DNA from: Litorivita pollutaquae
GTDB lineage: Bacteria > Pseudomonadota > Alphaproteobacteria > Rhodobacterales > Rhodobacteraceae
NCBI RefSeq assembly: GCF_003205515.1
Contig: NZ_KZ826488.1
Span: forward strand, 1-64,000
Length of the DNA: 64,000 nucleotides
Direction of reading: 5' to 3'
Made by a program: the position numbers and the translations under genes. Shown piece after piece: positions 3,852 to 52,270 of the stretch. A model generated the notes under the pieces. That model did no database searches. It saw nothing but the letters and a program-made list of their open reading frames with translations, and was not told the origin of the DNA. Positions within the stretch are counted from its first letter, which is position 1; each line of letters opens with the position of its first letter.

Positions 3852-3886
3852 AAAGGGGCTGCGGTTAACGCGCCCCTTTTTCTTCT
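3852..3886 (+). terminator. Rho-independent terminator of the 5' thioesterase operon
   Basis: An 8-bp stem (AAAGGGGC at 3852-3859 pairing with GCCCCTTT at 3872-3879) is followed by a run TTCTTCTT. It sits just after the second thioesterase stop and overlaps the last codons of the convergent tandem TetR gene. Confidence 0.7.
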
Positions 3887-5238
3887 TCTGAGAAGGCGAT
3901 GTTTTCCCTGTCGCAAATGCCCTCGAGAAGCAATTTGATGAGCATGCCGGAGAATTCGGACAAAGACAGATACCCATCTACGCCTGCCTTGTCCGAATCA
4001 AACCATTCCACCGTCCAATTCAACGCGCCGAGCATCACCTGCCGCAACGGGACAATTTTAATGTCCGATCTAATCGCATCATCTTCTTGTGCGTCGCGCA
4101 AGATTTTATCCCAGAGCCTGCCGTATTGATGCCGGATGCCCCTATGCCGCTCCCTGAGTTGATTGGGGAGCATGCCATAGCTTCGGATGTTCGCGGAGGT
4201 GAACTCGCTTGCCTTGAACAGAAAATGCAAATGGGTCCAGATCGCAGTCGCGATCCGGGCATGGTGATCATATGGCGGCTGGAACTCGTCGGCTGCGGCG
4301 CTGACGCCAGAAAGCAGATCGCTCAACCCGGCGTTCAGAACCTCGTCGACGATCGCTTCCTTGGATTTGAAATGGTAATAGACGCTGCCCGCTTTCATAT
4401 CGGCATCGTCTGCGATCTGACGCAACGTCGTGGCCTTGTATCCGTTGTCTCGCAGAACACGCGCCGCAGCTTTCAGGATTTCCGCACGGGTTTTTGCCGC
4501 CTTGCCCGAGGTTTCAACAGCTCTGAACATAATATCACTGGGCATCTTCCGCCCGGCGGTGTCGGCGCTTCGTTGTGAACACATTCCGTCAAGGATGAGC
4601 GTGCTCATACGTTCCGCAAGGAGGTTCACCGGATATCGGTTCACGTCATACCATTCGACCGTCCAATTCATCGCGCTGAGCACGAATTGCCGAATGGCCG
4701 AAACAGAAATATCCTTTCTCAAAAGGCCGTCACGCTTGGCCTCTTCGAGAAAATCGCTCCAGACCTGCGCGTAAGAGGCGCGCAACTCACGGTGCGGAGC
4801 ACGTGCTTCATCCGACAACATCGGGTAGTTTCGGATATTGGCCGAGGTATAGTCGCTGGTGGTCAAAAGGTAGGTCAAATGTGTTTCAATGAGCTGCGAG
4901 AAGGTTTCCCGAAACCCGATGGATTGATCTTGCGCGGAACGGACGATTTCACTGACGCTCTCGTAGAGCTCGCGAACACCGATATCGAGCACCTCACTCA
5001 GAATCTGGTCCTTCGATTCAAAATGATAATAGATGCTTCCGGCTTCAATGCCGGATTCTTGCGCGATGTCGCGCATTGTCGTCGCGTAATAGCCTTCATG
5101 CCGAAAAAGCCGAGCGGCCGCAGCAAGAATGCCCTCGCGTGTCCTTTCGGACTTGCTTAGATCGTCGACGATTTTATTAACCACATCATACTGTTCTACC
5201 ATTCTGTGTCGATACTTGTCAGCGGCAAGGCTGTCCAT
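3865..5238 (-). CDS. Tandem TetR transcriptional regulator (two fused TetR units)
   Basis: About 457 residues, twice the usual TetR length. Unit 1 has an HTH near 30-80 ending in GSIYYHFESKDQIL, then a ligand domain with SANIRNYPML, a W-x3-L helix and NWTVEWYD. A linker of about 25-30 residues leads to unit 2, which repeats everything: GSVYYHFKSKEAIV, SANIRSYGML, NWTVEWFD. Both HTHs look intact. The C-terminal half of each unit resembles the KstR2-like TetR ligand domain that senses acyl-CoA. The start used is the ATG at 5238; ATGs at 5280 and 5202 are possible, but the first would place the operator within the coding region. A perfect palindrome lies 10 bases upstream, so autoregulation is likely. 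It is divergent from a BadH-like gene. Confidence 0.9.
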   Translation of the reverse strand: MDSLAADKYRHRMVEQYDVVNKIVDDLSKSERTREGILAAAARLFRHEGYYATTMRDIAQESGIEAGSIYYHFESKDQILSEVLDIGVRELYESVSEIVRSAQDQSIGFRETFSQLIETHLTYLLTTSDYTSANIRNYPMLSDEARAPHRELRASYAQVWSDFLEEAKRDGLLRKDISVSAIRQFVLSAMNWTVEWYDVNRYPVNLLAERMSTLILDGMCSQRSADTAGRKMPSDIMFRAVETSGKAAKTRAEILKAAARVLRDNGYKATTLRQIADDADMKAGSVYYHFKSKEAIVDEVLNAGLSDLLSGVSAAADEFQPPYDHHARIATAIWTHLHFLFKASEFTSANIRSYGMLPNQLRERHRGIRHQYGRLWDKILRDAQEDDAIRSDIKIVPLRQVMLGALNWTVEWFDSDKAGVDGYLSLSEFSGMLIKLLLEGICDRENIAFSEEEKGAR

Positions 5239-5247
5239 TGCAATAAA

Positions 5248-5263
5248 TCTAACAACTGTTAGA
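5248..5263. promoter_or_regulatory. Operator palindrome, site 1 (TetR regulon)
   Basis: TCTAACAACTGTTAGA is a perfect palindrome with 7-bp arms and a 2-bp centre. It lies between the divergent tandem TetR gene and the BadH-like dehydrogenase gene. The same sequence with a variable centre recurs at five other promoters in this window, so it is most likely the binding site of the adjacent TetR-type regulator. Confidence 0.8.
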
Positions 5264-5328
5264 ATACACCAAAGAACCATCGAATCAAGTTCTTTGCTAC
5301 GATTTTAATGCAAGAGGAGGACCTTCAT

Positions 5329-6090
5329 ATGCGAGGGCTGAGTGGAAAACGGGTAATCGTGACAGGCGGCGGCAGCGGCATTGGTCGCGCGGTTTGCGAA
5401 CGGTTTGGACAAGAGGGCGCTGAAGTCGCTGTCTTCGATATGAATGAAAAAGGCGCGCAAGAAACAGCGCAGCTGATTCAGGACGCCGGTGGGAAAGCCA
5501 CGGCTTATAAGGCGGATATCACTGACCGCGCTGAAGTCGATAAAGCGGTTGCTGCCTTCGAAGCGGGCGGTCCGATCGACGTGCTGGTGAACAACGCGGG
5601 TTGGGACGTGATTAAACCGTTCCTCGATACCGATGCCGATCTTTGGAAGAAAGTCATCGACATCAACCTCTATGGCCCGCTGAACATGCATCATGCGGTG
5701 CTTCCGGGCATGGTCAAGAACGGTGGCGGCCGCGTGGTCAACATCGCGTCGGACGCTGGTCGCGTTGGATCCTCGGGCGAGGCAGTCTATTCGGCTTGCA
5801 AAGGCGGGATCATCTCCTTCACCAAAACTGTGGCGCGGGAACTGGCGCGCAAAGGCATTCAATTGAATGCTGTTGCCCCCGGCCCGACCGACACGCCGCT
5901 GTTTGCCCAAGTTGCCGAAGGCGAAGCCGGTCAAAAAATCGCGGAGGGTCTCAAGCGGGCCATCCCGATGAAACGTCTGGCGCAGCCGGCCGATTATCCC
6001 GGCGCCATTTGCTTCCTGTCGTCCGACGACGCCGGTTTTATCACCGGTCAGGTGATTTCGGTCTCTGGTGGTCTGTCGATGCACGGTTGA
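5329..6090 (+). CDS. SDR dehydrogenase, BadH-like (2-hydroxycyclohexanecarboxyl-CoA dehydrogenase type)
   Basis: 253 residues from the ATG preceded by AAGAGGAGG. Features are TGGGSGIG (NAD binding), NNAGWD, the catalytic YSACK, and an ending ITGQVISVSGGLSMHG. The stretches NNAGWDVIKPF, LNMHHAVLPGMV and VGSSGEAVYSACKGG strongly recall BadH of Rhodopseudomonas palustris, which oxidises 2-hydroxycyclohexanecarboxyl-CoA to the ketone. The reaction is therefore probably oxidation of a cyclic or branched 3-hydroxyacyl-CoA. Its promoter carries operator site 1. No BadI-like ring hydrolase is present in the window, so a cyclohexanecarboxylate pathway is not proven. Confidence 0.83.
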   Translation: MRGLSGKRVIVTGGGSGIGRAVCERFGQEGAEVAVFDMNEKGAQETAQLIQDAGGKATAYKADITDRAEVDKAVAAFEAGGPIDVLVNNAGWDVIKPFLDTDADLWKKVIDINLYGPLNMHHAVLPGMVKNGGGRVVNIASDAGRVGSSGEAVYSACKGGIISFTKTVARELARKGIQLNAVAPGPTDTPLFAQVAEGEAGQKIAEGLKRAIPMKRLAQPADYPGAICFLSSDDAGFITGQVISVSGGLSMHG

Positions 6091-17708: not shown

Positions 17709-17724
17709 TCTAACATTTGTTAGA
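17709..17724. promoter_or_regulatory. Operator palindrome, site 2 (TetR regulon)
   Basis: TCTAACATTTGTTAGA is a perfect palindrome between the divergent FadH-like gene (start 17671) and the acyl-CoA dehydrogenase gene (start 17768). It is identical to site 1 except for the 2-bp centre, so one operator can control both directions. Confidence 0.8.
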
Positions 17725-17767
17725 TTTTAGGGAAGAAGATATTTTTCGGTCATGGGGAGGAGCACCG

Positions 17768-18949
17768 ATGCAATTCCAAGCAACAGAAGATCAAAAGGCG
17801 TTTCGCGAGACAGCGAAACGATTCGCAACAGAGAAGTTGGCGTCGAGCTATTTGGAGCGCGCAAGCGGCCACACATTCGATCGCGCGCTGATCAAGGAGA
17901 TGGGCGCACTGGGTCTCATCGGGGCAGATTTGCCCGAAGAGTTCGGCGGGATGGGGCAAAGCTCTGTCACCTCGGGGCTGATTGTCGAAGAGATCGCTTA
18001 TGCCGATTTCAACGCCAGCTACGTGCAGCTTTTGGGCTCGCTCATGGGCGGCATGGTCGCCAAACACGCGTCTAAAGAGATTGCAATGGAATGGGTGCCC
18101 AAGGTTGTGTCCGGCGAGGCCGTGATTGGTTTGGGCCTGACCGAACCGCGTGGCGGGTCGGATGCGGCGAACCTGATTTTGAAAGCCGAGAAATCCGGCA
18201 ACGGTTGGGTTCTGAACGGCGAGAAAACGTCCATGAGCTTTGCCAGCCAAGCCGATGCGGCGGTGGTTTTTGCCCGCACCGGCGATCCGGACGGCGGCGC
18301 ACGCGGCGTGAGCGCCTTTTTTGTCGACCTGAACCAAGAGGGCATCAAGCGCACCCATTTCGACGACATCGGCACCAAGCCTGTCGGACGCGGGTCTGTG
18401 TTCTTTGACGATGTCTTCGTGCCGGCTGAAAATATGATGGCCGAACAGGACCGCGCCTTTGGCACGATCATGGCGGGCTTCGATTATTCCCGCGCGTTGA
18501 TCGGGCTGGAATGCTTGGGCGCGGCGCAAGCGTCGGTAGATGAAACTTGGGCCTATGTTCAGGAACGCGAGGCGTTCGGCGCCCCCATCGTGCAATACCA
18601 AGGCGTCAGCTTCCCGCTGGCCGAGGCGGAAACGCAACTGACCATGATGCGTCAGCTTTGCTATTACACGCTGGATCTGCGTGATCGCGGCATGCCGCAC
18701 ACGTCACAAGCGGCGATGTGCAAATGGTATTTGCCCAAAACCGCCTGCGAGATCCTGCACCAATGCCTGATCCTGCACGGGCACTATGGCTATACCACTG
18801 ATTTGCCGCATCATCAGCGTTACAACGACGTTCTTGGCCTGCAAATCGGCGACGGCACCGCACAGATCCAGAAACTTGTGATCGCGCGTGAAAAAGTCGG
18901 CCGGATGGCGCTGCAATACGACAAAAAGGCGAAGGGAGCATCGAAATGA
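17768..18949 (+). CDS. Acyl-CoA dehydrogenase (alicyclic/branched type)
   Basis: 393 residues from the ATG following GGGGAGGAG. GLTEPRGGSD lies near 123-132. The C-terminal signature reads LQIGDGTAQIQKLVIARE, with Asp where short- and medium-chain enzymes carry the catalytic Glu of YEGT. This IGDGT form is shared with several alicyclic acyl-CoA dehydrogenases (cyclohexane- and cyclohexenecarboxyl-CoA), so a cyclic or branched substrate is plausible. It is the first gene of a long plus-strand operon under operator site 2. The next crotonase overlaps its stop (ATGA). Confidence 0.85.
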   Translation: MQFQATEDQKAFRETAKRFATEKLASSYLERASGHTFDRALIKEMGALGLIGADLPEEFGGMGQSSVTSGLIVEEIAYADFNASYVQLLGSLMGGMVAKHASKEIAMEWVPKVVSGEAVIGLGLTEPRGGSDAANLILKAEKSGNGWVLNGEKTSMSFASQADAAVVFARTGDPDGGARGVSAFFVDLNQEGIKRTHFDDIGTKPVGRGSVFFDDVFVPAENMMAEQDRAFGTIMAGFDYSRALIGLECLGAAQASVDETWAYVQEREAFGAPIVQYQGVSFPLAEAETQLTMMRQLCYYTLDLRDRGMPHTSQAAMCKWYLPKTACEILHQCLILHGHYGYTTDLPHHQRYNDVLGLQIGDGTAQIQKLVIAREKVGRMALQYDKKAKGASK

Positions 18950-30629: not shown

Positions 30630-31398
30630 CGTCGGCACCCTCGGCAGGGCTGGTAGAACTATATGGCCAAAACAGTGCGGCGGGCGCAATCGCCGTCGAT
30701 CCCGTCGTCGTTTGGATCGCTGTCTTAATCCGCCCTGGCAGACCAAGAGAGGTCAGCCGTTTTTGATGGCCTGCGCGCGTGACCAGCCTCTTGCGATGGA
30801 CAGGAATGCAGATTCCAAAAACGGCTGCGATGGTCCGAGTGTGACGCACGCATACTCAACCAGCGACGCGCTTTGCAGTCCGGGACGTCAGTCGGCAGTC
30901 TTTCGCGGTATCAAGGCGCCCTCACCGGCGCCGCACCGACCCGCCGCGCCAGAGGAGATGACACTCCAAACCAGTCCTGTCCCTCGGCCCTCGGTCGTTG
31001 TTCGGTACCGCGCGGCCATTCAATGCATACCGCCTTCACTACGACCACGCGCGGCGTCTTACACCAAATCCTAGTCCGTGCTTGTCGCCCATGGCCCGGT
31101 GCAAATGCACACGGCCCTCAATCGCACCGCAAAACCTGTGTGAACGCGCACGGACAATTTGCTTCCGCAGCCTCACGTCTCAGCTACGGCCTCTCAAGCG
31201 ATGATACAGATACGGCTTGGCACCGGAATGAGGGCGACTTCTTCTCTTTTGACGCTTATTAATCAGTAATTTACATCATTTTGGAGCTGCGATAAGTCAA
31301 CTGTTGATTTGCCTTTCTAACGTATGTTAGGTTTATCTCGTGAGTGCTTGGCATAGTTGCCGAGTGAACCTCTGAACAAAGAGGTGGGAGGAGAAATA
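30630..31398. other. Long gene-free region upstream of the ABC importer operon
   Basis: About 770 bases without a supportable gene. It contains an inverted repeat (AGCCGTTTTTG at 30755-30765 and CAAAAACGGCT at 30816-30826) and the AT-rich promoter area with operator site 3 at 31316. One minus frame (30660-30724) encodes DSDPNDDGIDGDC, recalling a calcium-binding repeat, but a stop codon precedes it. The lower coding character suggests decayed sequence. Confidence 0.45.
31316..31331. promoter_or_regulatory. Operator palindrome, site 3 (TetR regulon)
   Basis: TCTAACGTATGTTAGG matches the TCTAACA-NN-TGTTAGA consensus at all but two outer/inner positions. It lies in an AT-rich stretch about 70 bases before the first ribosome site of the importer operon. 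Confidence 0.7.
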
Positions 31399-48594: not shown

Positions 48595-48610
48595 TCTAAC
48601 AAGTGTTAGA
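48595..48610. promoter_or_regulatory. Operator palindrome, site 4 (TetR regulon)
   Basis: TCTAACAAGTGTTAGA is a perfect palindrome 18 bases upstream of the transglutaminase-like gene start, in front of the six-gene operon ending at 43085. Only the central two bases differ from sites 1, 2 and 5. Confidence 0.8.
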
Positions 48611-52254: not shown

Positions 52255-52270
52255 TCTAACAGATGTTAGA
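52255..52270. promoter_or_regulatory. Operator palindrome, site 5 (TetR regulon)
   Basis: TCTAACAGATGTTAGA is a perfect palindrome in the divergent promoter region between the DUF35 operon (start 52202) and the CoA-transferase gene (start 52307), so it can control both. Confidence 0.8.

Follow-up and report, generated by a model that had tools for sequence, protein, structure and literature searches.

A natural double TetR regulator of roseobacters and its recurrent palindromic candidate operator

Main

We found that an uninterrupted minus-strand open reading frame (3865-5238) in the window, by which we mean the whole 64,000-nucleotide stretch of DNA analysed here, encodes a 457-aa chain made of two TetR units. 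The gene is intact, belongs to a conserved family with a history of duplication, and carries at its promoter a 16-bp palindrome that is conserved across loci and co-occurs with the gene across genomes. The best explanation, and one that we consider probable, is a single-chain repressor that would occupy one palindrome per chain and be released by an acyl-CoA; we infer the DNA binding, repression and ligand of the fused TetR. The result is a natural single-chain TetR family of ordinary domains in an unusual arrangement, for which Mce3R is the precedent and in which the operator symmetry and the lineage are new.

Two complete TetR units in one reading frame

The N- and C-halves of the chain are 38% identical over 213 aligned residues (E 6e-53). 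Pfam placed TetR_N twice and TetR_C_24 twice in the chain, and each half searched singly matched both domains above the Pfam cut-offs, bearing out the first-pass annotation of the gene as two complete TetR proteins in one chain. The motifs that it quoted from the two halves (GSIYYHF/GSVYYHF, SANIRNY/SANIRSY and NWTVEWYD/NWTVEWFD) are all present, and the recognition segments are nearly alike (I-E-A-G-S-I-Y-Y-H-F in the N-half HTH, M-K-A-G-S-V-Y-Y-H-F in the C-half HTH). It had named an HTH unable to bind DNA as an argument against its own reading; judged by sequence, both HTHs are conserved. The ScbR family model NCBIfam NF041196, whose cut-off of 150 bits is meant for one TetR unit, was rejected, the whole chain reaching 154.5 bits only through two summed domains (halves 85 and 74).

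The open frame had been proposed to begin at 5238, and here the frame held but the start did not. The gene probably starts at M13 (window position 5202), 12 codons further in, because the 5238-equivalent codon is ATA in 3 homologues, in-frame stops lie between it and M13 in 4 homologues, the RefSeq start of a Sulfitobacter orthologue is the M13 equivalent, and the chain is predicted to be disordered before M13 (AlphaFold pLDDT <50 for residues 1-22 of the 457-aa chain). Starts at 5238 or 5280 were dropped on the homologue codons, the stops and the RefSeq orthologue. The resulting features are as follows.

3865..5202, minus strand: gene of the double TetR repressor in its probable extent, starting at M13 (445 aa and a stop codon)
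4537..5202, minus strand: N-terminal TetR unit, TetR_N and TetR_C_24 (Pfam; clade support 99/96)
3868..4536, minus strand: short linker and C-terminal TetR unit, TetR_N and TetR_C_24 (Pfam; clade support 97/94)

Distribution and origin of the fused gene

A GTDB genome scan returned 226 relatives, of which the best 80 loci were analysed. All 80 match both halves (one is cut by a contig end), and they span about 43 genera, with 66 in Rhodobacterales, 10 in Hyphomicrobiales, 1 each in Hyphomonadales, Acetobacterales and Pseudomonadales, and 1 unplaced. Fused homologues of full length are present at 79 or more loci besides that of the window. In a survey of 298 family genomes, the window's own among them, a group A gene (76-100% identity) is present in 8, own genome counted, and a group B gene (54-55% identity) in 2, one genome having both groups. 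The fused gene also lies on 39 plasmid records and is annotated as TetR family or plain transcriptional regulator in the records listed. It is vanishingly improbable that a frameshift, a sequencing error or a pseudogene has merely united two neighbouring genes, the first two being objections that the first-pass annotation had raised against itself: we found no evidence favouring such an artefact, and rejected it because the fused frame persists across 80 loci in many genomes and on the plasmid records as well.

Large plasmids of Sulfitobacter, Pseudosulfitobacter and others (including L136, NZ_CP025809.1), some of them predicted to be conjugative, carry the catabolic cluster together with the fused regulator. 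The window's genome holds a second double TetR ORF of 438 aa (L020:3220-4536, minus strand; contig C3 near 307220-308536), in which TetR_N matches twice within a single open frame of 443 aa and whose sequence is not close to that of the window protein. Double TetRs make up 2 of the about 18 TetR ORFs of this genome.

We built a maximum-likelihood tree from 20 N-halves, 20 C-halves and 14 single-unit relatives, the search for which had been suggested in the first-pass annotation; Mce3R was left out, as were distant outgroups, which had given extreme long branches in a first tree. The N-halves form one clade (99/96) and the C-halves another (97/94). Together these split from the 14 singles, which stand apart from both halves, at 99/99, a step made less certain by a tool warning that long branches meet at the fused-versus-singles split. 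Given that the N and C clades are separate, and sister to each other relative to the singles, the simplest reading of the sequences is one old internal duplication that preceded the spread of the family.

A palindromic candidate operator at the fused gene and at acyl-CoA catabolic genes

The first-pass annotation had pointed to a 16-bp palindrome, and we located it at 5248-5263. Its symmetric candidate consensus is TCTAACA-NN-TGTTAGA, and it recurs beside the following genes of the window.

5248..5263, no strand assigned: putative operator TCTAACAACTGTTAGA, with tetR and the badH-like gene diverging from it; recurs in the genome and is conserved in homologue loci
5308..6090, plus strand: divergent SDR resembling BadH (2-hydroxycyclohexanecarboxyl-CoA dehydrogenase) and probably a target (371 bits for TIGR03206, short of its cut-off of 431)
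17709..17724, no strand assigned: exact copy of the operator, flanked by a gene of OYE/2,4-dienoyl-CoA reductase type (minus) and an AliB-like operon (plus)
17717..18949, plus strand: AliB-like ORF of cyclohexanecarboxyl-CoA dehydrogenase type, whose true start lies downstream of the operator (524 bits for TIGR03207, short of its cut-off of 575)
31316..31331, no strand assigned: degenerate operator-like site (2 mismatches) preceding an operon for a branched-chain-type ABC transporter and an acyl-CoA ligase
48595..48610, no strand assigned: exact operator copy upstream of a transglutaminase-like ORF (minus)
52255..52270, no strand assigned: exact copy of the operator preceding a CoA-transferase III gene (plus)

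Including a fifth copy at C8:70952, the 3.42-Mb genome has 5 exact palindromes and none beyond these, where base composition predicts 0.004, and all 5 share one contig; within the window, 8 sites match with 3 mismatches or fewer, where 0.45 are expected. The own-promoter site is retained with 0-2 mismatches in 78 of the 80 loci (0 in 45, 1 in 27 and 2 in 6). On the plus strand the badH-like gene has a promoter-like TTGCAA-16-TAGAAT, and the operator sits between its two hexamers; on the minus strand tetR has a promoter-like TTGATT-17-TATTCT (read by eye), and there the operator overlaps TATTCT. Because it overlaps both promoter-like sequences, binding could block transcription in both directions. 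The exact sites at 48595 and 52255 form a pair that recurs in all 8 group A genomes at a spacing of 3660-3663 bp, either through conserved gene order or as a looping pair.

The neighbourhood comprises BadH-like, AliB-like, beta-oxidation and CoA-transferase genes. Operator copies other than those above the BadH- and AliB-like genes precede CoA-transferase III and SDR genes, and the 17709 site also adjoins the OYE-type reductase, which is annotated as 2,4-dienoyl-CoA reductase in Sulfitobacter. The pathway substrate is uncertain, since the BadH-like and AliB-like proteins score below the equivalog cut-offs and no BadI was identified. BadH and AliB enzymes act in the breakdown of cyclohexane carboxylate, which in Gram-negative bacteria is regulated by BadR, a MarR-type protein that responds to cyclic acyl-CoAs (PMC9795900). 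Like BadR of Rhodopseudomonas palustris and Aromatoleum sp. CIB, the fused TetR would have badH/aliB-type targets and, we assume, respond to cyclic acyl-CoAs, but BadR belongs to the MarR family and uses the operator CAATnnATTG, whereas the fused protein has TetR domains only (PMC9795900). A TetR-like gene has been noted in Gram-positive bad-ali clusters (PMC9795900), and the cluster of Rhodococcus BCP1 contains TetR-like genes (PMC5906575).

Co-occurrence of palindrome and gene, and the single-unit paralogue

Across the 298 family genomes, all 8 group A genomes have 4-5 exact palindromes each, whereas 5 of the other 290 have 1 and 285 have none (Fisher p 9e-13, ignoring kinship among genomes). 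In at least 4 of the 5 genomes that have the palindrome without the fused gene, its neighbours are genes of RND-efflux type and a different TetR-like gene; loci L131-L134, from genomes lacking the fused gene, have TCTAACATATGTTAGA near such a TetR-like gene adjoining RND-efflux-type genes.

The closest relative of the fused protein in its genome is a single TetR of 209 aa (C8:122684-123313; L019:3684-4313, minus strand), preceded at C8:123337 by CCTAACACCTGTTAGC, a degenerate palindrome (GCTAACA-GG-TGTTAGG). The paralogue (L019, L040-L046) occurs in the same 8 genomes as the fused gene, so co-occurrence alone cannot tell the two regulators apart. The palindromes might then be mainly sites of the paralogue, with the fused protein regulating mostly itself or other targets, a reading to which both the shared distribution and the related upstream site lend something. 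We regard it as improbable: the paralogue's own site is 2-4 bases off the exact palindrome in all its orthologues, whereas in nearly all loci the exact palindrome stands 9 bp from the old (5238) start of the fused gene, a position at the promoter that speaks for the fused protein as reader.

Predicted fold and pairing of the two halves

Structure prediction, another check that the first-pass annotation had proposed, gave AlphaFold2 models with pLDDT 80.5 and 85.0 and pTM 0.79 and 0.83 from alignments of 10 and 34 window and locus proteins, each for one chain only, a setup that favours an intramolecular arrangement. For both models the best Foldseek match in the PDB was a double TetR, Mce3R (9b7y), over 425 and 423 columns (query TM 0.64 and 0.63, target TM 0.74 and 0.72), and Mce3R was the only whole-chain match among the 50 PDB matches listed; the full-length rmsd of 5.8 and 6.7 A counts against the reading that we favour. 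Mce3R (Rv1963c) of Mycobacterium tuberculosis is a solved double TetR and thus a precedent for the fused architecture, in which one chain adopts the omega-shaped fold of a TetR dimer and contains a four-helix bundle of its own (PMC11667970). On these models we infer that one chain of the roseobacter protein folds compactly as an N-C pseudo-dimer, like the Mce3R monomer. In sequence scores the single TetRs 4mo7, 2ibd, 3vpr and KstR2 outrank Mce3R, a hint that the two fusions may have arisen separately.

Two chains could instead pair N-N and C-C, giving a two-headed dimer on two operators, with looping, or on a long composite site. The pair of exact operators about 3660 bp apart in all eight genomes would suit looping, and Mce3R is itself a homodimer bound to two duplexes (PMC11667970), but that spacing may reflect conserved gene order only, the fused-gene loci have one short palindrome per promoter, and the model of one chain follows the fold of the Mce3R monomer along its whole length. 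We therefore hold this arrangement to be rather unlikely. An obligate intramolecular dimer on one palindrome, one of the options of the first-pass annotation, is the best-supported reading, to which the Mce3R-like predicted fold, the single conserved palindrome per promoter and the similar core site of the singles all point.

The single-unit relatives, which probably act as homodimers, have CTAAC-NNNN-GTTAG-like sites upstream. Because they share the CTAAC core and both fused HTHs keep nearly the same recognition segment, the simplest reading of the sequences is that the fused pair would bind the ancestral symmetric site. In outlying groups the TCTAACA arm of the own-promoter site is intact and the right arm is changed at position 3 (TCAAACA in 8, TCGAACA in 6), a pattern to be taken as a lead only, these loci being mutually related. 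If the pair is obligate, the halves are free to track their own arms, and we tentatively suggest, as a minority possibility, that each half does so and that the symmetric homodimer-type operator may be evolving towards an asymmetric, Mce3R-like state. A second conserved site that has one arm changed, TCAAACA-TA-TGTTAGA, recurs in L102, L105, L106, L108, L111-L114 and L116, some 6.3-6.4 kb downstream from where the fused gene starts.

Ligand domains and effector

The first-pass annotation had further suggested that the halves have diverged in a way that allows two different acyl-CoA effectors; such a chain would integrate two signals. The halves are, as stated, only 38% identical, and obligate pairing would leave the pockets free to diverge. 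Among 34 homologues, however, the two halves conserve the same residue at 53 paired positions, against 5 fixed and mostly conservative differences (S/A, L/F, D/E, P/G and Y/F), which argues for pockets that are equivalent or shared, and Mce3R has been described with a single composite ligand-binding domain (PMC11667970). The paired positions thus lend two effectors no support, and we judge such dual sensing improbable. By analogy, the effector of the fused repressor may be a cyclic or branched acyl-CoA.

Discussion

In the mechanism that we propose, an ancient internal duplication would have fused the two subunits of the usual TetR homodimer, and one chain would act as a pseudo-symmetric dimer whose two HTHs read the two arms of TCTAACA-NN-TGTTAGA. 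Lying over the divergent tetR/badH-like promoters, the operator would mediate both autorepression and repression of the catabolic operon, while its further copies may bring other acyl-CoA catabolic operons on the same contig under the same control. The repressor would then be released by an acyl-CoA that arises as an intermediate in a bad/ali-like pathway for alicyclic (or related branched) acids.

Single-unit TetRs of acyl-CoA metabolism (FadR, KstR2, AibR and PfmR type) share the fold, the acyl-CoA neighbourhood and a short palindromic operator, but are homodimers of about 200 aa rather than a fused double chain. In engineered single-chain TetR dimers, two linker-joined TetR units act on one operator; these were made by design, whereas the roseobacter fusion is natural and old. 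In a literature search on natural double, tandem or single-chain TetRs, Mce3R was the only relevant case found. The two proteins are alike in having two TetR units per ORF, a full-length fold match (with a predicted model here), autoregulation (presumed for the roseobacter protein) and a regulon of lipid or acyl-CoA catabolism, and differ in that Mce3R uses 25-bp non-palindromic sites (PMC11667970) and the fused roseobacter gene has a near-perfect palindrome.

The family comprises many natural single-chain TetRs that have diverged from one another and whose operator is clear and can be counted, and it allows testing of how fusion of a homodimer alters operator symmetry and ligand sensing. It would also provide a ready, putative regulator/operator pair for alicyclic acyl-CoA catabolism in roseobacters.
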